Below, piece by piece: positions 28,838-41,387 of a stretch of 64,000 nt of DNA. The DNA lies in NCBI RefSeq assembly GCF_003697845.1, contig NZ_RDQE01000003.1:211174-275173 (forward strand), in the 5' to 3' direction. The number at the start of each line of letters is the position of its first letter. The first letter of the stretch is position 1. This stretch comes from Halobellus captivus. GTDB taxonomy: Archaea > Halobacteriota > Halobacteria > Halobacteriales > Haloferacaceae. Under the pieces are notes generated by a model. It was given only the letters and a program-made list of their open reading frames with translations, ran no database searches and was not told the origin of the DNA. The position numbers and the translations under genes were made by a program.

Positions 28838-31800
28838 ATGGTGAGTCCAAATCATCGAAGGGTCGTGATCACTCGCTCACGGACGCTGGCCGTACTGTTT
28901 TCCGTACTGATGGTGACCTCGATGGCCGCGTCCGGAGCGGGGCTCGGCGTCGGGACGGCACAGGCACAGCAGACTGGGGACGTAACGTATCGCGTGAACG
29001 CGGGCGGGGATACGATACCCGCCACGACCGGCCCGGACTGGTCCGGCGACTACGGTCAGTACGTCTCCGGATCGACTTCGACGTACTCGACGGATGATTC
29101 GGTTTCCCTCGATAGCTCGGTCCCGAGCGGAACACCGGCGGAGGTGTTCGAGTCCGAGCTATACGGCGACCAGCAGTGGACCTTCTCCGAGGACGTACAG
29201 AGCGGTCAACAGTACGAGGTCCGACTGTACTTCGCCGAGATCTACCAGACCGCGGACAACGAACGGCTCTTCGACGCCACCGTCGAGGGTGATCAGGTAC
29301 TCGACGCCTACGACATCCACGCCGAAGTCGGCCACGACGTCGGCGAGACGAAGTCGTACACCGTCACGCCTGACGACGGCGATATCGAGGTCGATCTCAC
29401 GACCGTGGAGGACAACGCGAAGATCTCGGCCATCGAGATCGTCGAGTCCGAGCCCGAACCGGACACGCTCGGTGGTCCGTCGTCCGTCGACTTCGGCAGC
29501 GTCGTCGTCGACGGTTCCGACTCGGAGACCGTCACGCTGACCAACCTCGGTGACGACGGAGACCCGGACATAACCGTCGACGACCTCTCGATCGCCGGCT
29601 CCGACGCGGACGAGTTCTCCGTCGGGTCGGCGTCGCAGACGACGCTCGCCCCCGGCGAGTCGGCCGACGTCCCCGTGACGTTCTCGCCGTCCGACACGGA
29701 CGCGAAGAGCGCGACGCTCGAAGTGAGCCACTCCGGATCGAACAGCCCGCTGACGGTCGACCTCTCGGGGGAGGGTACGAGTTCGATCCAACCCGGCTTC
29801 TCGAAGAGCAAGCTCCAGGGCTTTAGCGCCGGCAGCCCGACGGCGATCGATTTCGGACCGGACGGGCGCGCATACGTCTCCACGCAGGGGGGCACCGTCT
29901 ACGCCCTCGACGTCGAGCGAACCGACGAGGACAGCTACGAAGTCGTCAACGAGGTCCAGATCGACGCGATCAAGGACATCCCGAACCACGACGACTTCGG
30001 GAACATCGACACCGGCGAGGGTGACAGACAGATAACCGGTCTCACGGTGGGTGGCACTGCCGACCAGCCCGTGGTCTACGTCGGTTCCAGCGACCCCGAG
30101 ATCGACGTCGGACAGGACGACGACGACACGGACACCAACTCGGGGGCGATCTCGCGGCTGACGGTCGACCCGGGGAGCGACGGACCGCTCGAGGCGAGCG
30201 ACGTCGAACACGACGTGCTGGTACTCGGCCTCCCGCGCTCAGAGGAGAACCACGCGACGAACGGGCTCGACCTCTCGGCCGACGGCGACACGATGTACGT
30301 CGCACAGGGCGGCCACACCAACAAGGGCGCGCCGGGCGACAACTTCGGACACACGCCCGAGTACGCGCTCTCGGCCGCGGTTCTGGAGATCGATCTCGCG
30401 CAGATCGAGAACGACCATCAGCCGAAAGACCTCCAGGACTACGACGGCGACTACCCGAGCCTGGACTTCTACTACGGCATCCCGACGATCCAGAACGACG
30501 ATGACACCGACGGCGACGACCTGCCGTTCGGCGGGAACGACGGGATCAACCAGGCGAAGCTGATCGAGAACGGGCCGGTACAGATCTACTCGCCCGGCTA
30601 CCGGAACCCCTACGACCTGGTCCTCGCGGAGAGCGGCCAGCTCTACGTCAGCGACCACGGTCCGAACGGCGGCTGGGGCGGCCAGCCGGCGGACGCGAAC
30701 GGGGATATCGTAGCCGACGCGGAGTCAGTGACGAACCATCCGAACGAGGACGGAAGCTTCTCGACGAACGACCAGCTCATCGCTGCTGACGAGGGCGAGT
30801 ACGGCGGGCATGCAGCACCGATCCGTGCGAACCCCACGCAGGCGGACATCTACGATGCGGACGGGAACGTGAAATTCGACGTCAACGAATCGAACTCCCC
30901 GGTTCCGTCGAGCATGGTGAACCCTGTCGAGGCCGACTACATTCCGCCCACGAGCGGATCGCCCGACCCGGGCGCGCCAGCAGGTAGTGCGAACACGATG
31001 GAGTACGAGGACGGGGACAAGGTCCTCTTCGGCCCGACGGGCGGAACGGCCGAGTACACCGCCTCGAATTTCGGCGGCGCGATGGAAGGCGACATCCTCC
31101 AGGTGGAACTCGGCGGTGACGTCGAGCGCGTCGAACTGAGCGCTGACGGCCAGACGGCCACGAGCAGCGAGACCATCTTCAACACCGGCGGTCCGCTCGG
31201 AATCGCCACGCAGGACGACGACGAGGCGTTCGCCGGCACCGTCTGGACCGCCAACCACGGCGGCAGCGACGTCACCGTCTTCGAGCCGGACGACTACGAC
31301 GGAACCGATAACGGCGACCAGTGTACCGGTGCCGACGACTCGAGCCTCGACGAGGACGGCGACGGCTACGACAACGCCGACGAGATCGACGCGGGCACGG
31401 ACCCGTGTTCGTCGAGTTCGACGCCCGTCGACTTCGACGACGACGAGTCGAACCTGAACGATCCCGACGACGACAACGACGGCCTCAACGACACCGAGGA
31501 CCCATTCGCGGTCGATCCCGACAACGGCGTCGACACGACCGCCCCGGTCGAGTACGACCTCTCCGAACTGAGCCTGTTCGGCGAGAACGGCCAGGGCTGG
31601 ACGGGCGTGATGACGAACGGGCAAGACGACTACCAGGACCTCTACGATCCGACGAATATGACGGTCGGCGGCGCGGCCGAGGTCCTGACGGTCGAGGAGG
31701 TCCCGCCGGGTGACGCCTACTCGGACACGAACGACCAGCAGTACGGCTTCCAGTTCGGCGTCGACACGCCGGACGAGCCGTTCGTGGTCGAGACGACGGT

Positions 31801-34800
31801 CGCCTCCTTCCCGGAGAACCCGGAGGACTTCCAGTCCGCCGGGCTCCAGATCGGGACCGGTGACCAGTCGAACTACGTCAAGCTCGTCGCCGCGGCCAAC
31901 GGCGGCGACGGCGGCGTGGAGTTCGCGAAGGAGGTCGACGACTCGTTCGACGGACAGATGACCGACGAAAGCGCGGTCGTGGGCGGAACCACGACGCTTC
32001 GGATGACGGTCGATCCGACCACCGACCCCGCACCGGACAACGGCGTCGACGAGGTCAACGTCACCGCTGAGTACGAAATCGACGGCACGACCACCGAGGT
32101 CGGAAGCGTCGCGATGCCGGCGAGCTGGCTCGACACTGCCGACGGCGTCGCGCCCGCCGTGGGCGTCATCTCGACGTCCAACGGTGCGGACAGTTCGTTC
32201 GCGGCGACGTGGACCGACGTCTCGGTCGACTACGTCACGCCGCCCGAAAACCAGCCGCCGACGGCGGACGCGGGTGACGACCGGACGGTCGACGAGGGCG
32301 ACTCGGTCACGCTCGACGCGTCCGGATCCGACGACCCGGACGGCGACCAGCTCGGCTACACGTGGACCCAGACGGCGGGTCCGGACGCCGGGCTGAGTCA
32401 GAGCGACGGTGAGACGACGACGTTCACCGCGCCCGAGGTCGACGCCGACGAGACGCTCACCTTCGAGGTAAGCGTCTCCGATGGCGAAGACAGCGACACC
32501 GACACGGTGAACGTCACGGTACAGGACACTGACGTCGCGGCCGGCGAGGTCGTCCACCGCGTCAACGCCGGCGGGTCCGAACTCGGCGCGATCGACGACG
32601 GTCCCGACTGGTCGTCCGACACGGACGGCGAGCCGTCGGAGTTCACCAACGTCGACGAGAGCGGGAGCAACACGTACGACACGGTCGACACGATAACGCT
32701 CGACGACTCGGTCCCGTCGAGCACGCCCGCGTCCGCGTTCCAAACCGAGCGTTGGGACCCGAACGCCACGATCGGCACCGACGCCGACGCGCCCGAGATG
32801 GAGTGGAACCTCCCGGCGCAGTCGGGACAGACCTACGAGGTCCGGCTGTACTTCGCGGAGATCTTCTTGGAGGAGGGTAACAACCTCGAGAGCCAAGGAC
32901 CGCGCGAGTTCGACGTGGTCCTCGAGGGACAGACCGTCCTCGACGACTACAACATCCACGACCAGTACGGTCACGACGTCGGCGCGATGGAGTCGTTCGA
33001 GGTGACGCCCTCGGACGACGACATCAACGTGACGTTCCTCCACGAGGCGGAGAACCCGAAGATATCGGCGATCGAGGTCGTCTCCGTCGAGGAGGACGAC
33101 GAACCCGACGAGATGACCGTCGCGGAGGCGGTCGCGAGCTCCGGGGACGGCGACGACTCGACGATCAGCCTACAGGAGATCCAGACCGCCATCGATTGGT
33201 GGTCGACCGGTACGGAAGTCCCGAACACCGGCGGGGAGACGATCTCCCTACAGGAGATCCAACAACTAATCGACACGTGGTCGACAGGTGAGACCGTCGG
33301 CGACGGCAACGAAGGGCCGACGGCGTCGTTCACCTACAGCCCCGACTCACCCGGGGCGGGCCAGCAGGTGAGCTTCGACGCCTCCGGCTCCAGTGACGAC
33401 GGGACGATCGGGTCCTACGAGTGGGACTTCGACGGCGACGGCGAGACCGACGCCACCGGCGAGCAGGTGACCAACACCTTCGACGCCGCGGGCGACTACG
33501 ACGTTGAACTCACCGTTACCGACGACGACGGTGCGACCGATAGCGCGACCGAAACCGTCTCGGTCGACGAATCCACGGCTGACCCCGGATCCGCGTCGGT
33601 GAGCGTCACGCCCGATAGCGGCACCGAGGCGTCCACTTACGGCGGCGGCTCGTTCACGGTCGAGAACACCGGCGACCAGGAGATATCGTCGGTCACCTTC
33701 GACCTGTCATCGGGCGCGATGCCGGATATGGTGTGGGATCCGGACGGTACCGCCGGCGACCAGGCGGCGAAGGGCCTCGTCATCGATTCGGAGTCCGGTG
33801 ACGGCGTCGGCGTCGTCAGCACCGCGGACGACGACGTGTTCAGCCAGCCACACAACGGCGTGAACGGATCCGACGGCTACGACGTGTTGACCGTCGAATT
33901 CACCGACTTCGGACCCGGCGAGTCGGTGTCGTTCTCGGCGGACAACGACCCGACGAGCATCAAGGACGCGAGCATCTCCTCTCAGGAGGCCGGTCCGGTC
34001 TCCGGACTGGAGCTGGCCCGCTCGACGGTGAGCGCCGAGTACGCAGACGGGAGCGTCCAGGAGACCCAGCTGTTCGGTGACGGCAGCGCCGGCGGCGCAC
34101 AGGCGACGCTCGACGACTCGGTCGCGTCGGCACCGAGTATCGGTGTACAGGCCGTCGACCTCGACGACGGTGCGCTCCGCGACCATCACAGCGCGGCCAC
34201 CGTGAGCGAGGCCGACCAGACCGTGATCGTCACGGGTGAGCCCGACGAGACGGTCACGCTGCTACACTTCGAAGCCGAGCTCGAACTCGACGACGTCCCC
34301 GAGTACGACGGGACGCCCGGCTACGACATCGAGGCCTACGAGGCCAACAAGATCGAGAACGTCGATTACCAGACGGTCACGCTCGACTCGAACGGCGAGG
34401 CCGAGGTGCCCGTCACGTTGCTCAACACGACCGACGTCGGCGGCTACAACCACCTCGTGGCGACCCACGGCGAGCCCGGGTCCGACACCGGCCTCGACTC
34501 GAACGTGGTCGTCCTGAAGTACGAGGAGAGCGCCGATGACGGTGGTGACGACGGCGGCGCTACCAGCTTCGCCGTGAACGCCGGGGGATCCGAGTACACC
34601 GCTGTGGACGGCACGGAGTTCCAGGCGGACACCGACTTCGACGGCGGCACTTCGTTCACCACCGGAGGGGCCGGAACCCCCTCGGCTCCCGAGATCTCGA
34701 ACACGGACGACGACGAGCTGTACTACACCGAGCGGTACGGCAACTTCAGCTACGACACCCCTCTCGAAGACGGTGACTACGAGGTCACCCTACACTTCGC

Positions 34801-36643
34801 CGAACTCTACCAAGGCGTGGCGAACGACGGTGGCGAAGGCGACCGTCTGTTCGACGTCTCGATCGAGGGTCAACAGGTCCTGGACAGCTACGATATCTAC
34901 GCCGAGGCCGGTGGCCCGCACGCGGCGACCCAGGAGACGTTCACCGCCGAAGTCACCGACGGTGAGTTGAACGCCGAGTTCACTACCGTCGAGAACAACG
35001 CGAAGGTGTCGGCCATCGAGGTCGAGCCGATCGACGACGGCGGCGACGACAACGCCGCGCCGACGCTCGATACCATCGACGACCAGACTGTCACCGAGGG
35101 CGACTCGACGACGGTCCAAGTCAATGCCACAGATGCCGACGACGACCCGTTGGCGCTGTCGGCCGACGGCCCGGACTTCGTCGGGCTAACCGACAACGGC
35201 GACGGCACGGGAACGCTCGATGCCGCCCCGCAAGACGGCGACGCGGGCACGTACACGGTGAACGTGACGGCCGACGACAGTACCGACCAGACCACCGAGA
35301 GCTTCCAGCTCATGGTCGAGTCGTCGTCGACCGGCGACGAGCCCGTCTACGCGGTGAACGCCGGCGGCACTGAGTACACCGCTGCGGACGGCACGACTTA
35401 CGTCGCCGACACGGAATTCGGCGGCGCATTCAGCGGATCCGAGGGAACAACCGACATCAGCCAGGACATCGGGAACACGCAGGACGACTCGCTGTACCAG
35501 TCCGAGCGGTACGGTGACCCGCTCTCGTACAGTATGCCGGTCGAAGACGGCACATACGAGGTAACGCTGCAGTTCGCGGAGATCTACCACGGCGTCGATG
35601 GCGGAAACGCCGGTGGTGGAGAAGGCGACCGCGTGTTCAACGTCTCCGTCGAGGGCGAGCAGGTCCTCTCCAACTACGACATCTACGCGGACGTCGGTGC
35701 GTTGAACGCGACCGAGAAGACGTTCACCGTCGAGGTCACAGACGGCGAACTGGACATCGACCTGGACGCGTCAGAGGACTTCGGCAAGATCAGCGCGTTC
35801 ACCGTCTCGGAAGCTGACAGCTCCGACGACGGCGGTGACGACAACGCCGCGCCGACGGTCGATACCATCGACGGCCAGACGGTCACCGAGGGCGACTCGA
35901 CGACGGTTCAGGTCACTGCCTCGGATGCCGACGGTGACTCGTTGACGCTGTCGGCCGACGGCCCGGACTTCGTCGGTCTGACCGACAACGGCGACGGCAC
36001 GGGAACGCTCGATGTCGCCCCACAGGACGGCGGCGCGGGCACGTACACGGTGAACGTGACGGCCGACGACGGCACCGACCAGACCACCGAGAGCTTCGAG
36101 GTGACCGTTGAGGAGGCCGAACCCCAGACGCTCCACCGAGTGAACGCGGGCGAGGGAACGACGGTCAACGCGACGGACGACGGTCCCGACTGGACCGGCG
36201 TCGAGGACACGAGTTCGCCGTACCTCGCGTCGGTCGCTGCCGCTGACAACAACTACTGCGCCGGCGATGAGATCTCGCCCGACGGCACGGTTCCCTCGTC
36301 GACGCCCGACGGCGTATGGGACTGCGAGCGCTACGGGAACATGACCTGGGAGTTCTCGGTGAACTCCGGCGAGGAAGTCGACGTCCGACTCCATCTCGGA
36401 AACTCGTACCCCGGTGCGGACGGGCAAGGTGATCGACAATTCAACGCCTCCGTCGAGGGCCAGCAGGTCCTGACGCAGTACGACCCCGTGGCCGACGTCG
36501 GTCACGCGACAGGAACGATGAAGAACTTCACCGTTACCGACGACGGCGACGGCGCGATCACGGTCGAGTTCGAGCAGGGCGCCGCCGAGAACCCGGAAGT
36601 CCGGGCCATCGAGATCGTCGAGACGGAGGAAAACACGGAGTAG
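28838..36643 (+). CDS. Giant secreted multidomain protein: five malectin-like domains, sugar-dehydrogenase-like propeller, dockerin-like segment
   Basis: 2601 residues. A signal peptide spans 1-44 (core TLAVLFSVLMVTSMA). Approximate domains: malectin-like 48-208 (YRVNAGG, EVRLYFAEIY); ASPM/hydin-type anchor domain 209-314; glucose/sorbosone-dehydrogenase-like beta-propeller 316-824; calcium-binding DxDxDG repeats 828-898; concanavalin-like 901-1133; PKD/REJ 1135-1235; malectin-like 1236-1418; dockerin-like 1426-1488 (TISLQEIQ twice); PKD 1490-1578; unassigned 1578-1905; malectin-like 1908-2066; Ig-like 2071-2163; malectin-like 2168-2328; Ig-like 2335-2426; malectin-like 2431-2601. Malectin domains bind glucosyl sugars. 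No membrane or PGF-CTERM anchor ends the protein, so the dockerin-like part may dock it to neighbouring cohesin proteins. Catalysis by the propeller is inferred from family only. Confidence 0.88.
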   Translation: MVSPNHRRVVITRSRTLAVLFSVLMVTSMAASGAGLGVGTAQAQQTGDVTYRVNAGGDTIPATTGPDWSGDYGQYVSGSTSTYSTDDSVSLDSSVPSGTPAEVFESELYGDQQWTFSEDVQSGQQYEVRLYFAEIYQTADNERLFDATVEGDQVLDAYDIHAEVGHDVGETKSYTVTPDDGDIEVDLTTVEDNAKISAIEIVESEPEPDTLGGPSSVDFGSVVVDGSDSETVTLTNLGDDGDPDITVDDLSIAGSDADEFSVGSASQTTLAPGESADVPVTFSPSDTDAKSATLEVSHSGSNSPLTVDLSGEGTSSIQPGFSKSKLQGFSAGSPTAIDFGPDGRAYVSTQGGTVYALDVERTDEDSYEVVNEVQIDAIKDIPNHDDFGNIDTGEGDRQITGLTVGGTADQPVVYVGSSDPEIDVGQDDDDTDTNSGAISRLTVDPGSDGPLEASDVEHDVLVLGLPRSEENHATNGLDLSADGDTMYVAQGGHTNKGAPGDNFGHTPEYALSAAVLEIDLAQIENDHQPKDLQDYDGDYPSLDFYYGIPTIQNDDDTDGDDLPFGGNDGINQAKLIENGPVQIYSPGYRNPYDLVLAESGQLYVSDHGPNGGWGGQPADANGDIVADAESVTNHPNEDGSFSTNDQLIAADEGEYGGHAAPIRANPTQADIYDADGNVKFDVNESNSPVPSSMVNPVEADYIPPTSGSPDPGAPAGSANTMEYEDGDKVLFGPTGGTAEYTASNFGGAMEGDILQVELGGDVERVELSADGQTATSSETIFNTGGPLGIATQDDDEAFAGTVWTANHGGSDVTVFEPDDYDGTDNGDQCTGADDSSLDEDGDGYDNADEIDAGTDPCSSSSTPVDFDDDESNLNDPDDDNDGLNDTEDPFAVDPDNGVDTTAPVEYDLSELSLFGENGQGWTGVMTNGQDDYQDLYDPTNMTVGGAAEVLTVEEVPPGDAYSDTNDQQYGFQFGVDTPDEPFVVETTVASFPENPEDFQSAGLQIGTGDQSNYVKLVAAANGGDGGVEFAKEVDDSFDGQMTDESAVVGGTTTLRMTVDPTTDPAPDNGVDEVNVTAEYEIDGTTTEVGSVAMPASWLDTADGVAPAVGVISTSNGADSSFAATWTDVSVDYVTPPENQPPTADAGDDRTVDEGDSVTLDASGSDDPDGDQLGYTWTQTAGPDAGLSQSDGETTTFTAPEVDADETLTFEVSVSDGEDSDTDTVNVTVQDTDVAAGEVVHRVNAGGSELGAIDDGPDWSSDTDGEPSEFTNVDESGSNTYDTVDTITLDDSVPSSTPASAFQTERWDPNATIGTDADAPEMEWNLPAQSGQTYEVRLYFAEIFLEEGNNLESQGPREFDVVLEGQTVLDDYNIHDQYGHDVGAMESFEVTPSDDDINVTFLHEAENPKISAIEVVSVEEDDEPDEMTVAEAVASSGDGDDSTISLQEIQTAIDWWSTGTEVPNTGGETISLQEIQQLIDTWSTGETVGDGNEGPTASFTYSPDSPGAGQQVSFDASGSSDDGTIGSYEWDFDGDGETDATGEQVTNTFDAAGDYDVELTVTDDDGATDSATETVSVDESTADPGSASVSVTPDSGTEASTYGGGSFTVENTGDQEISSVTFDLSSGAMPDMVWDPDGTAGDQAAKGLVIDSESGDGVGVVSTADDDVFSQPHNGVNGSDGYDVLTVEFTDFGPGESVSFSADNDPTSIKDASISSQEAGPVSGLELARSTVSAEYADGSVQETQLFGDGSAGGAQATLDDSVASAPSIGVQAVDLDDGALRDHHSAATVSEADQTVIVTGEPDETVTLLHFEAELELDDVPEYDGTPGYDIEAYEANKIENVDYQTVTLDSNGEAEVPVTLLNTTDVGGYNHLVATHGEPGSDTGLDSNVVVLKYEESADDGGDDGGATSFAVNAGGSEYTAVDGTEFQADTDFDGGTSFTTGGAGTPSAPEISNTDDDELYYTERYGNFSYDTPLEDGDYEVTLHFAELYQGVANDGGEGDRLFDVSIEGQQVLDSYDIYAEAGGPHAATQETFTAEVTDGELNAEFTTVENNAKVSAIEVEPIDDGGDDNAAPTLDTIDDQTVTEGDSTTVQVNATDADDDPLALSADGPDFVGLTDNGDGTGTLDAAPQDGDAGTYTVNVTADDSTDQTTESFQLMVESSSTGDEPVYAVNAGGTEYTAADGTTYVADTEFGGAFSGSEGTTDISQDIGNTQDDSLYQSERYGDPLSYSMPVEDGTYEVTLQFAEIYHGVDGGNAGGGEGDRVFNVSVEGEQVLSNYDIYADVGALNATEKTFTVEVTDGELDIDLDASEDFGKISAFTVSEADSSDDGGDDNAAPTVDTIDGQTVTEGDSTTVQVTASDADGDSLTLSADGPDFVGLTDNGDGTGTLDVAPQDGGAGTYTVNVTADDGTDQTTESFEVTVEEAEPQTLHRVNAGEGTTVNATDDGPDWTGVEDTSSPYLASVAAADNNYCAGDEISPDGTVPSSTPDGVWDCERYGNMTWEFSVNSGEEVDVRLHLGNSYPGADGQGDRQFNASVEGQQVLTQYDPVADVGHATGTMKNFTVTDDGDGAITVEFEQGAAENPEVRAIEIVETEENTE

Positions 36644-36976
36644 CGACGCTCCACCACCCAGACCGATGACTGGAATATCCGCACGCGCCGTCGCTGTCCG
36701 CCCGTGGTCGACCAGCGAGGTCGACCCCGAGAGCGACGGTCGCGTGCGGACGCGGACCGATGACGGCAGGCGAACGCTCCGGCGTGTCGCCACACGGCAC
36801 GGACCGGCGCCATTCGGAGGTAACGACCACAAGAGCCGAACCGCGCCGGACGAGCCGTCTCGAGGCCCGAGGCATCCCCTTTCATCGGTCGAGATCAGGC
36901 GTGACGCCTTCGACCAGCGAACAGAGCGGTGAACGACCCCACGACGAAACCGAATTCAACGACACCCAAATACCCA
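36644..36976 (+). other. 333-bp gap between the giant protein and the cohesin/dockerin gene
   Basis: No gene is supported. Frames here are Arg-rich shadows. The sequence is G+C-rich with no strong TATA box; the only mildly AT-rich part is next to the downstream ATG (CGAATTCAACGACACCCAAA). A separate promoter is possible but not evident. Confidence 0.4.
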
Positions 36977-39007
36977 ATGAACGACACAGTACACGGATAC
37001 CTCGGACGGACGATCGCGGCGCTCGTCGCGCTCGCGCTGTTCCTCTCGATCTTCGGATCGGTAGGGATGGTGGCGGCGGTAGACGGCATAACCGTCGATC
37101 AGCAGGCGGACAGCACGGTCGTCGAGCCGGGTGACACGATCGCGTTCACCACGAACGTCACGGTCGATGGCGAGCAAATAGACGCGAGCAGTATCGGCCT
37201 CCAAACGAACGTCGAACAGGGAGAGCTTCCCGGATGGGAGGTAACGGACCGGCAGAACGGCGAGTTCTTCGGGGCCGGTCCCGACGGATGGCTGTGGTTT
37301 AACGTCAACGGACCGTCCGGATCCGACACCGTCCAGTACACGGTCGCGGTTCCGGACGATGCCGAACCCGACGACTACGACGTCTCCCTGACGGCGTCCG
37401 GCGAGGGCGACGCTGGAAGCACGACCGACACGACCACCATCACGGTCGAGGCTCCGAACCAGAACGAGGACCCCACGGCGTCCTTCACTGCGAACCCGTC
37501 CTCACCCGAAGCGGGTGAGGAAGTGTCGTTCGACGCCTCGGCGTCCAGCGATTCTAACGGGTCCATCGAGAGCTACGAGTGGGACTTCGACGACGGCGCG
37601 ACCGCCACCGGCGAGCAGGTGACCAACACCTTCGATTCGGCCGGTGAGTACGACGTGGAACTAACGGTCACCGACGACGACGGCGCCACGGACAACACGA
37701 CCCAGACCGTTTCCGTGGTCGAAGCGCCGCCGACGAATCAGGACCCGACCGCCGATGCCGGTGCTGACCAGACGGTCGACGAAGGCGACTCGGTGACGCT
37801 GGACGCCTCTGATTCCAGCGATCCGGACGGCGATAGCCTCTCGTACGCCTGGACCCAGACCGGTGGTACTTCGGTATCACTGAGCGACGCCGACACGGCA
37901 ACGTCGACGTTCACCGCCCCGGACGTCGACGCCGACGAGACGCTTTCCTTCGAGGTAGAAGTCGACGACGGTAACGGCGGCATCGGCACCGACACGGTGA
38001 GCGTCACCGTTCAAGACGTCCCGGATCCGGACCCTGACCCTGCGAACTTCCAGGTGTCGAACCTGAACGCACCCGACAACGCGACCAAGGGTGACGCACT
38101 CGACGTCTCGGCGGACGTCACCAACGACGGTGACGTGGAAGCGACCCAGACGGTCGAATTCAGACTGGACACCGACGGCGACGGCACGCTCGACGCCGAC
38201 GAGGAACTCACCGCACAGGAGGTGACGCTCGACGCCGACGAGACGCAGACGGTCACGTTCGAGGACATCGACACGAGCACCCTCCTCGCTGGCGAGTACG
38301 CCCACGGCGTCTTCACCGAGAACGACTCCGCGACGGCGACCATCACCATCGAGGAATCGGATACCGCGGGTCCGGGAACGTCGGTGAGCCTCTCGCCCGA
38401 CAGCTCGGAGCTCGTGATCGGCGAGAACGAGTCGTACGACGTGGTCGTCGACAGCGCCGACGGCGGCGTCGGTGCCTACGAGGTGACGGTCGCTCTCGAC
38501 GATCCCAACATGGCGTCGATCACCGACGCCACCCTCGAGGCGGACTCCGATTTCACAGACGTGAGCTACGCGGATGACGACTCCTCGGTAACGCTCACCG
38601 CGGCGCTGATGGATACGACCGACACGGGTAGCGTCTCGATCGCCTCGGTCACCGTCGAAGGTGTGGCCGAGGGATCGAGCAACGTGACGGTCGACGTACA
38701 GGCGCTCGGCACCGAAGCCGGCGAGAGCTACACCGTCACCGACGAGAACGGTGCCTCCGTCTCCGTCATCGAACTCCCACCCGTCGGATCGTACGACGAG
38801 CCGCCGCAGGACCCCGACGACGACGGTCTCTACGAGGACATCAACGGCGACGGCACGTTCGACATCAACGACGTACAGGCGCTGTTCGTCAACCGGAACG
38901 ACGCGACGATCCAGGACAACCCAATGAAATTCGACTTCAACGGCGACGACACGTTCGACATCATCGACGTACAGGCGCTGTTCAACCAACTGTTGACGGA
39001 GAGCTAA
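36977..39007 (+). CDS. Secreted PKD-CARDB-cohesin-dockerin protein
   Basis: 676 residues from the ATG at 36977. The frame starts 16 codons earlier, but MNDTVHGYLGRTIAALVALA gives a proper signal peptide ending near residue 34. Domains: N-terminal beta domain 35-158; PKD 164-250 (YEWDFDDG); PKD/REJ 254-350; CARDB-like 355-461; cohesin-like 468-600 (GGVGAYEVTVALDDPNMASI, then STGSVSIASV-like strands and a GTEAGESYTV end); dockerin 613-675 with two EF-type loops, DINGDGTFDIND and DFNGDDTFDIID, each followed by VQALF. Carrying both a cohesin-like module and a canonical dockerin means it could link partners or chain to itself. It is followed after one base by a second cohesin-like gene. Confidence 0.87.
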   Translation: MNDTVHGYLGRTIAALVALALFLSIFGSVGMVAAVDGITVDQQADSTVVEPGDTIAFTTNVTVDGEQIDASSIGLQTNVEQGELPGWEVTDRQNGEFFGAGPDGWLWFNVNGPSGSDTVQYTVAVPDDAEPDDYDVSLTASGEGDAGSTTDTTTITVEAPNQNEDPTASFTANPSSPEAGEEVSFDASASSDSNGSIESYEWDFDDGATATGEQVTNTFDSAGEYDVELTVTDDDGATDNTTQTVSVVEAPPTNQDPTADAGADQTVDEGDSVTLDASDSSDPDGDSLSYAWTQTGGTSVSLSDADTATSTFTAPDVDADETLSFEVEVDDGNGGIGTDTVSVTVQDVPDPDPDPANFQVSNLNAPDNATKGDALDVSADVTNDGDVEATQTVEFRLDTDGDGTLDADEELTAQEVTLDADETQTVTFEDIDTSTLLAGEYAHGVFTENDSATATITIEESDTAGPGTSVSLSPDSSELVIGENESYDVVVDSADGGVGAYEVTVALDDPNMASITDATLEADSDFTDVSYADDDSSVTLTAALMDTTDTGSVSIASVTVEGVAEGSSNVTVDVQALGTEAGESYTVTDENGASVSVIELPPVGSYDEPPQDPDDDGLYEDINGDGTFDINDVQALFVNRNDATIQDNPMKFDFNGDDTFDIIDVQALFNQLLTES

Positions 39008-39008
39008 T

Positions 39009-41387
39009 ATGAGTGTTCGTCAACTCCCAACGACTCTGAACGCGGAAAACGCGATCGTGCTCGCGGTGGCAGTCCTCGTCACGACCGTCGGCCTCGGCGG
39101 GGCTGCGATGGGTATCGGACCGGCTGTAGGACAAACACAGGACGGACTCTCGGAAGACGGACTCGAAACCGCGGTGAGCCTCGAACCGGGGAGCGCCGCG
39201 GTCGATGAGGGCGGGACGACGACCTACGAGGTCGTCGTCGCGGACGCCGACGGCGGCGTCGGCGCGTACGACTTCACCGTTGACGTCGAGGACTCCAGCG
39301 TCGCCTCGATAACGGACGTGACTGCGGAGGGGGACCCGAGCGATCAGACTACGGACGTCTCCATCGCCGCCGACGGCTCCTCGGCCAGTGTCCTCGCCGC
39401 GTTGGCGGACACGAACGACACTGGCAGCGTGACCATCGCGACGGTGACCGTCAGCGGTGACGCCGAGGGGACAAGCGACATCGGACTGAGCGTCGAGGCG
39501 CTCGGCACCGAAGGCGGTGAGAGCTACACCGTCACGGAGACCACCGGGGCGTCAATCACCGTCGAAGCGGCGGACGACGATGACGACGACGACGACAGTC
39601 CTACACCGGAGCCCGCTCCGGCGGATTTCCAGGTATCGAACCTGAACGCGCCCGACAACGCGACGCAAGGCGACGCGATCGACGTGTCGGCGGACGTCAC
39701 CAACGACGGCGACGAGGAGGCGACCCAGTCGGTCGGATTCAGGCTGGACGCCGACGGCGACGGTACCCTCGGCGACGACGAGGAACTCACCGCACAGGAG
39801 GTGACGCTCGACGGCGACGAGATGCAGACCGTCACGTTCGAGGACATCAACACGAGCGGCCTCGAACCCGGCGAGTACGCCCACGGCGTCTTCACCGAGA
39901 ACGACTCCGCGACGGCGACCATCACCATCGAAGCGGCGGATGATGACGAGCCGGAACCGGCTCCAGCACCCGAAACCGCGGTGGGAATCGAGCCCGGAAG
40001 CGCCACCGTCGATGAAGGTGAGACGACGACCTACGAGGTAGTCGTCGCGAACGCCGACGGCGGCGTCGGTGCCTACAACCTCACCGTTGACGTCGAGGAT
40101 TCGAGTATCGCCTCCATAACGGAGGCAACTCCGCAGGGAGAGCCCTCGAACCAGACCACCGAGGTCTTCGTCGCCGACGACGGCTCCTCGGCGGAAGTCG
40201 TCGCCGCGCTGGCGAACACGAACGACACCGGGAACGTTACGGTCGCGACGATGACCGTCGAAGGTGACGACGACGGGACCAGCGACATCGGGCTGAGCGT
40301 CGACGCGCTCGGAACCGAAGCGGGCAATTCCTACAACGTCACGGAGACGACCGGAGCGTCCATCACCGTCGAGGAAGACGACGACGATGACGACGACAGT
40401 CCCGATCCGGCGGACTTCCAGGTATCGAACCTGAACGCGCCCGACAACGCGACGCAGGGCGACGCGATCGACGTGTCGGCGGACGTCACCAACGACGGCG
40501 ACGAGGAGGCGACCCAGTCGGTCGAGTTCAGACTTGACGCCGACGGCGACGGCACGCTCGACGCCGACGAGGAACTCACCGCACAGGAGGTGACGCTCGA
40601 CGGCGACGAGATGCAGACCGTCACGTTCGAGGACATCAACACGAGCGGCCTCGACGCCGGAGAGTACGCTCACGGCGTCTTCACCGACGACGACTCGGCG
40701 ACGGCGACCATCACCATCGAGGCGGAGGACGAAGCCGACGACGGTGAGGACGATGGCGATGACGCCGACGACGGTGAGGACGATGGCGATGACGCCGACG
40801 ACTCCGACGACGGCGACGACGGCGACGATGGCGATGGCGACGACGCCGACGACGGTGATGACAGCGCGGACGAGGAGTTCAGTCGCGACGAGATCGCCCA
40901 GGCGAAGTACGACACCGCCTTCGCGGACCTCAGCTCCGAGACGGCGGCGGCGGTCCAGGCGATCTACAACCGGCAGCCGTTCCCCGGCGGGACGGATCCG
41001 GCCGACATCAGAACCCGTGACGAGATCACCGACGATCGGTACGGATACGACTTCGACGAGGTGAGTCGTGAAACGAGGATCGAGATCCAGAACGACTACG
41101 ACGCACAGTTCGGTGAGCTCCCGTCCGATCCGACTCACACGCTCGACGAGATCGCCCAGGCGAAGTACGACACCGCCTTCGCGAACCTCAGCGTCGAGAC
41201 GGCGGCGGAGGTCCAAGCGATCTACAACCGGCAGCCGTTCCTCGATGGGACGGAGCCGGTCGACATCAGGACCCGCGACGAGATCACTGACGACCGGTAC
41301 GGATACGACTTCGAGGAGATCAGTCGCGAAACGAGGATCGAGATCCAGAACGACTACGACGCACAGTTCGGTGATACCGAAGGCTGA
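39009..41387 (+). CDS. Secreted protein with two cohesin-like and two CARDB modules and a fourfold C-terminal repeat
   Basis: 792 residues. A signal peptide occupies about 1-42 (core IVLAVAVLVTTVGLGGAAMG). Domains: cohesin-like 53-187, CARDB-like 201-309, cohesin-like 321-456, CARDB-like 468-572, an acidic D/G/E/A linker 573-622, and a C-terminal region 623-791 of four related 35-40-residue units (DEI...Y...F...S.ET...IQ..Y..Q). The two cohesin-CARDB blocks are nearly identical at DNA level, so the gene grew by duplication. It has two cohesin-like modules and no dockerin, the plan of a scaffold or anchoring protein. The start is one base after the upstream stop, indicating an operon. No known surface anchor is visible; the C-terminal repeats may serve that role. 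Confidence 0.87.
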   Translation: MSVRQLPTTLNAENAIVLAVAVLVTTVGLGGAAMGIGPAVGQTQDGLSEDGLETAVSLEPGSAAVDEGGTTTYEVVVADADGGVGAYDFTVDVEDSSVASITDVTAEGDPSDQTTDVSIAADGSSASVLAALADTNDTGSVTIATVTVSGDAEGTSDIGLSVEALGTEGGESYTVTETTGASITVEAADDDDDDDDSPTPEPAPADFQVSNLNAPDNATQGDAIDVSADVTNDGDEEATQSVGFRLDADGDGTLGDDEELTAQEVTLDGDEMQTVTFEDINTSGLEPGEYAHGVFTENDSATATITIEAADDDEPEPAPAPETAVGIEPGSATVDEGETTTYEVVVANADGGVGAYNLTVDVEDSSIASITEATPQGEPSNQTTEVFVADDGSSAEVVAALANTNDTGNVTVATMTVEGDDDGTSDIGLSVDALGTEAGNSYNVTETTGASITVEEDDDDDDDSPDPADFQVSNLNAPDNATQGDAIDVSADVTNDGDEEATQSVEFRLDADGDGTLDADEELTAQEVTLDGDEMQTVTFEDINTSGLDAGEYAHGVFTDDDSATATITIEAEDEADDGEDDGDDADDGEDDGDDADDSDDGDDGDDGDGDDADDGDDSADEEFSRDEIAQAKYDTAFADLSSETAAAVQAIYNRQPFPGGTDPADIRTRDEITDDRYGYDFDEVSRETRIEIQNDYDAQFGELPSDPTHTLDEIAQAKYDTAFANLSVETAAEVQAIYNRQPFLDGTEPVDIRTRDEITDDRYGYDFEEISRETRIEIQNDYDAQFGDTEG
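40881..41380 (+). repeat. Four coding repeats of a 35-40-residue helical unit
   Basis: Units begin near 40881, 41010, 41134 and 41268. Units 1 and 3 share DEIAQAKYDTAFA and ETAA.VQAIYNRQPF; units 2 and 4 share DEITDDRYGYDF and SRETRIEIQNDYDAQFG. All four fit one consensus, so a two-unit block was duplicated. The function is unknown. Confidence 0.8.

Follow-up and report, generated by a model that had tools for sequence, protein, structure and literature searches.

The window that we analysed is a stretch of 64,000 nucleotides from Halobellus captivus (contig NZ_RDQE01000003.1 of assembly GCF_003697845.1), and all positions below refer to it. Three consecutive genes, P1, P2 and P3, lie there on the same strand, between a gene that resembles metallophosphoesterases and what we read as the gcvP genes (glycine dehydrogenase). 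A preliminary description of the locus had reported these genes together with signal peptides and a one-base gap between the second and the third, and our data agree with it: the ORFs were found at the reported positions, a hydrophobic N-terminal segment is present in all three proteins (3/3), and a single base separates P2 from P3. Only the start of P2 was moved, since its ORF opens at 36929 and the true start is likely the ATG at 36977, because relatives of this protein begin with MNDTVHGYLGR or similar. N2, DOCL, U1, LamG and TAIL are names given here to conserved segments without a confident library match. The features of the locus are the following:

28838-36643, + strand: P1, ORF of 2601 aa, putative secreted malectin/propeller client protein
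28982-29446, + strand: P1 malectin domain 1 (PF11721 family match and a profile built in this analysis)
29456-29734, + strand: P1 choice-of-anchor D (Ig-like ASH) domain (NF012200, 54.7 bits, cut-off 45)
29807-31306, + strand: P1 beta-propeller, distant member of the GSDH superfamily (alignments; PF07995 E 5e-5, below cut-off)
31628-32245, + strand: P1 LamG-like domain adjoining the propeller, conserved (own profile; named by pattern only)
32549-33082, + strand: P1 malectin domain 2 (Pfam and own profile)
33110-33310, + strand: DOCL, duplicated helical dockerin-like module of P1 without calcium loops, proposed N2 ligand (alignments, co-variation)
33611-34534, + strand: U1, conserved P1 domain also present in bacterial homologues (own profile)
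34565-36622, + strand: P1 malectin domains 3-5 with Ig/PKD spacers (Pfam and own profile)
36977-39007, + strand: P2, putative adaptor protein, order N2-PKD-PKD-CARDB-COH-DOC
37085-37450, + strand: N2, Ig-like (NEW3-like) module of P2, proposed DOCL receptor (alignment; AF2 pLDDT 82.5; Foldseek Ig-like)
38375-38767, + strand: P2 cohesin (AF2 pLDDT 90.5; Foldseek to cohesins)
38816-38989, + strand: P2 dockerin, type I-like, two canonical calcium loops (PF00404; profile matches the PDB dockerins 2mte and 1daq)
39009-41387, + strand: P3, 792 aa, putative scaffold/anchor protein, order COH-CARDB-COH-CARDB-acidic linker-TAIL
39165-39566, + strand: P3 cohesin 1 (family alignment; own-genome profile match, E 2.9e-55)
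39969-40373, + strand: P3 cohesin 2 (family alignment and own-genome profile match)
40722-40868, + strand: Asp/Glu-rich linker of P3 (sequence)
40869-41375, + strand: TAIL of P3, two repeats of ~85 aa, proposed surface-attachment region (alignment; replaces the TM of short relatives)

The malectin profile PF11721 matches P1 in five stretches with 381.8 bits, well above its curated cut-off of 23 (Pfam scan), as the preliminary description had anticipated, and P1 also contains PKD modules. Glycan binding by P1 is plausible from these five malectin domains. The propeller scores 23.1 bits against PF07995 (GSDH), i.e. below the cut-off of 25, and one of its blades weakly matches quinoprotein glucose dehydrogenases (E 0.03). 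Residues H149 and R266 of the propeller are invariant across 35 homologues, and this His and Arg would at most be compatible with an enzyme. The LamG-like domain had no Pfam match, and U1 (~308 aa) had no confident match in Pfam or NCBIfam. It had been proposed earlier that the complex binds or oxidises glucosyl polysaccharides: sugar binding is reasonable in view of the five malectins, whereas oxidation is unproven with a sub-threshold GSDH match, and we take P1 to be a lectin-like client at the surface.

The cohesins of P2 and P3 are not recognised by profile searches. PF00963, by which it had been suggested to verify them, had no match in either protein in the Pfam scan, and it matches only 1 of 43 relatives of these cohesins at E 0.01. 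A sequence search of the PDB with P3 and with the cohesin profile returned chance or partial matches only, therefore a comparison of folds was needed. From 32 sequences, AlphaFold (AF2) modelled the P2 COH-DOC tandem with a mean pLDDT of 90.5 and a pTM of 0.74, the latter value leaving the contact between cohesin and dockerin unsettled. All of the best 40 PDB matches of this model (Foldseek, best E 2.5e-9, prob 1.00) are cohesins; these include bacterial types I to III, the archaeal cohesin 2xdh of Archaeoglobus fulgidus and cohesins of C. perfringens. The P2 cohesin is thus predicted to have the cohesin beta-sandwich fold, and the two cohesins of P3 fall by alignment into the family of the P2 cohesin, the one whose fold was modelled. 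The fold match outweighs the PF00963 miss, because a Pfam match is a detection test and not a structural one; the modules called cohesin-like before appear to be cohesins, and an unrelated fold was not obtained.

The canonical dockerin reported for P2 was confirmed: both calcium loops of this module (residues 630-687) are canonical (DINGDGTFDIND and DFNGDDTFDIID), and Dockerin_1 (PF00404) gives 20.5 bits when the whole protein is scanned (cut-off 22.9) and 25.7 bits when all six frames are searched. Three cohesins of the P2/P3 type and one matching dockerin, all of them in P2 and P3, form a closed set in this genome, and the sole dockerin that matches the P2 cohesin is P2's own. On another contig of the same genome (C32, L054:8290-10274) a gene for a dockerin-bearing phosphoesterase overlaps a cohesin gene by 4 bases. 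This cohesin is recognised by Pfam and has a hydrophobic C-terminus, and the gene pair is probably an independent two-gene version.

The segment of P1 at 33110-33310 had been called dockerin-like. It exists and it is conserved, but the relationship to dockerins found no profile link: the hhalign probability of DOCL against the dockerin profile is 0.2-4%, the Pfam scan gave no PF00404 match to it, and a sequence search against the PDB gave chance matches only. In DOCL a helix motif (ISLQEIQ...W) occurs twice, and the DOCL of P1 has no aspartate loops. A descent of DOCL from a dockerin is possible, because distant copies found elsewhere retain one EF-hand-like loop. Foldseek places the model of N2 nearest to Ig-like/NEW3 domains, with a sialidase Ig module from bacteria close to it, and not with cohesins, and the hhalign probability of N2 against the cohesin profile is 1.8%. 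The DOCL of P1 and the N2 of P2 are the sole copies in the genome.

The P1 propeller is present in 30 of 391 Halobacteria genomes (17 of 86 genera), and P2-like and P3-like genes lie next to P1 in almost all of these, in the same gene order. The arrangement, which the preliminary description believed to be undescribed, is a conserved haloarchaeal operon and not unique to this genome; no description of it was found in searchable open papers. We scored the docking module on P1 against the module that opens the next gene. Wherever P1 carries DOCL the next gene opens with N2 (22/22), wherever it carries a canonical dockerin the next gene opens with a cohesin (8/8), and the five complete P1s that have neither module (L092, L097, L103, L106 and L131) have no partner genes (5/5). 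L090 (DOCL) runs off its contig, and in L098 ('none') P1 is truncated, so that the locus was not counted. On the propeller tree P1 switches between dockerin and DOCL at least five times, and the independent pairs on well-supported branches are concordant in 4/4 cases (sign test p 0.125; four pairs by themselves are too few for significance). A single recombination carrying the end of P1 and P2 together could be an alternative source of such joint swaps.

The same rule extends to operons of other composition. In two species P1 is split into a part a, which ends in a dockerin, and a part b, in which an N-terminal cohesin is combined with DOCL and whose next gene opens with N2. Longer relays (L093/L117 and L109-L111) keep the order in which N2 receives and DOCL or a dockerin passes on, and DOCL is absent from every unsplit operon where a cohesin replaces N2. 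Locus L087 has a P1 with DOCL and a P2 with N2 and a dockerin and no detectable cohesin. A further P2 relative (L102:7097-9208) has N2 and lacks both cohesin and dockerin; its C-terminus looks frameshifted in a repeated domain.

DOCL and N2 also occur together beyond this operon. Among the 391 genomes DOCL is found in 40 and N2 in 82; N2 is present in 35 of the 40 DOCL genomes versus 47 of the other 351 (Fisher p 5e-22), and with the P1 genomes left out in 13 of 18 versus 47 of 343 (p 1e-7), both values ignoring relatedness. Outside the operon, in the loci fetched, DOCL genes of about eight genera adjoin genes that open with N2 and are often TM-tailed, which is how a client-anchor pair should be arranged; cohesins of the P2/P3 family are absent from these loci. 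The DOCL proteins of these loci include G8/CEMIP-type proteins, a polysaccharide deacetylase and a PQQ-type propeller. A minority of DOCL genes (L212, L213, L214 and L217) have no N2 gene nearby. One other haloarchaeal genus conserves a unit of three genes, encoding a PKD protein, a DOCL protein (~335 aa) and an N2 protein that is mostly membrane-tailed (L191-L195, L211 and L216), and the unit reappears in two more genera.

Relatives of P3 come in three forms: a long cohesin-TAIL protein, a short protein in which the cohesin is followed at the C-terminus by a TM segment and arginines, or a protein with another C-terminal domain. The short membrane-tailed form is the most frequent, and the TAIL repeats stand in its place here. 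Because short P3 relatives end in a TM segment and Arg, the comparison suggests that P3 is a surface anchor whose TAIL takes the place of the membrane segment. TAIL is made of helical units of ~40 aa (DEI..KY...F..LS.ETA..VQ..YNRQPF). It also terminates haloarchaeal proteins without cohesins (L044, L045, L046 and L047), one of them a malectin-TAIL protein, and might serve haloarchaea generally for attachment to the surface. Pfam also matched TAIL weakly to gluconate dehydrogenase subunit 3; we took this as similarity at the level of helices and rejected it.

We consider it probable that the operon encodes a three-part non-covalent relay at the cell surface. P3 would sit at the surface, presumably attached via TAIL, and display two cohesins; P2 would be an adaptor that inserts its canonical dockerin, at the C-terminus, into a cohesin of P3; and P1, whose malectins may bind carbohydrate, would plug into P2 by docking DOCL on the Ig-like N-terminal N2, the putative receptor. 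In the sister operons the equivalent joint would be made by a true dockerin of P1 and the N-terminal cohesin of P2. The fold of the cohesins, the conserved structure of the operon and the co-variation of the modules lend good support to the non-covalent extracellular cohesin-dockerin complex that had been proposed before, with the joint of P1 reassigned to DOCL and N2.

In its original form that proposal had the dockerin-like segment of P1 bind a cohesin of P2 or P3, so that all joints would be of the cohesin-dockerin kind. One can argue for it that DOCL is a duplicated two-helix module shaped like a dockerin, with an EF-hand-like loop kept in weakly related copies, and that the P2 cohesin otherwise has no obvious outside ligand. 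However, DOCL and dockerins share no profile, the P2 of L087 offers DOCL an N2 and no detectable cohesin, unsplit operons have no DOCL wherever a cohesin replaces N2, and loci of the L191-L202 type, where DOCL and N2 genes lie close by, hold no cohesin of the P2/P3 family. We therefore regard this version as unlikely. Most likely the DOCL of P1 docks on the N2 of P2 and not on a cohesin, and what joins P1 seems to be another plug-and-socket pair, as yet without a name, which is also present in other haloarchaea. It is about as likely as not that N2 and DOCL form a second receptor-ligand pair, with a fold unrelated to that of cohesin, by which haloarchaea fasten carbohydrate-related surface proteins to membrane-tailed anchors, interchangeably and sometimes in series with cohesin-dockerin. 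N2 is a common Ig-like fold and could be a spacer.

The pairing of dockerins with cohesins was examined at the residues that flank the last calcium ligand of the dockerins, positions adjoining the known specificity positions of bacterial dockerins. We compared 42 dockerins whose next gene opens with a cohesin, and two main types were found, G-D-A-Q and V/L-D-V-Q. Dockerins with G-D-A-Q in both loops face a single supported cohesin clade (98/93) in 9/9 cases, the only other member of this clade faces a dockerin with G in the second loop, and V/L-D-V-Q dockerins face cohesins outside the clade. Relatedness inflates this clustering, and the contrast within single loci, several of which hold both dockerin types, each opposite its matching cohesin, is independent of relatedness. 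The code does not simply mark position, because the G-D-A-Q signature is missing from the P1-type dockerins in L104 and in the split P1s. As far as sequences can tell, the specificity residues of the dockerins track the clade of the cohesin in the next gene. This bears on the thought that P2 associates with itself, its dockerin binding a cohesin in the same or in another P2 molecule, so that filaments or a closed form would arise and P3 would be no more than a cap. Cohesin and dockerin stand in tandem in most P2s, the model of this tandem has the pTM of 0.74 given above, and the genome has no other dockerin that matches the P2 cohesin; yet the specificity residues point to the next gene, and some P2s, as in L087, have no internal cohesin, which makes self-association quite improbable. 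The least probable reading is that there is no complex at all and that these are three modular surface proteins with inherited docking modules serving as spacers or adhesive domains, for which speak the wide recurrence of Ig-like, PKD and CARDB modules in these loci and the inheritance of operons as blocks, but against which stand the joint swaps of modules at several points of the tree, the lack of partner genes where P1 has no docking module and the recurrence of DOCL-N2 neighbours with unrelated clients.

To our knowledge many archaea have dockerins without known partners. The operon supplies a concrete wiring, gene by gene, from which pairs of binding modules can be predicted. If the joint between DOCL and N2 is real, it would be a second modular plug-and-socket working in saturating salt; one class of haloarchaeal docking modules would thereby gain its missing partners, and the joint could be of use in constructing protein assemblies at high salt.

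No paper on a haloarchaeal cohesin was found among searchable open papers; in the PPI3D paper (PMC11223826) the words Halorubrum and dockerin occur in unrelated contexts. Haloarchaeal enzymes with dockerins, namely the GH26 mannanases (PMC10963439) and a GAG lyase (PMC13260240), share with P2 a type I dockerin on a secreted protein, which was read there as substrate-binding, with no cohesin partner named. ANME archaea have scaffoldin-like proteins that combine a dockerin with several cohesins (PMC9012536). Like the modules described here, the cohesins and dockerins of Archaeoglobus fulgidus and ANME are extracellular, and A. fulgidus 2xdh is among the top fold matches; however, those modules are mostly scattered or carried on transport proteins, whereas here they belong to a conserved operon, with every protein facing its successor. 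P1 itself resembles the malectin-propeller giants of bacteria (Hymenobacter, Saprospiraceae, Planctomycetes, Granulosicoccaceae), with which it shares the propeller-LamG core, malectin and U1, the propeller at ~40% identity. The bacterial giants end in other C-terminal regions, and no cohesin, N2 or DOCL of the present kind was seen in their loci. Among these giants (L129-L190) several Bacteroidota copies end in an apparent secretion-sorting tail and some in EF-hand/dockerin-like ends.

Another near known system is the bacterial cellulosome with its adaptor and anchoring scaffoldins (e.g. Acetivibrio, Clostridium thermocellum). The operon does not encode a multi-enzyme cellulosome or scaffoldin: against three cohesins the genome has a single matching dockerin, on P2, and no glycoside hydrolase was found in the operon by the Pfam scan. 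Instead of a set of glycoside hydrolases there is one malectin/propeller client in a system of three proteins, and the joint of this client would be DOCL-N2. What is alike in both systems is the fold of the cohesins, their putative display at the surface, the adaptor that combines a cohesin with a dockerin, and a chain of proteins that would be held together by dockerins.
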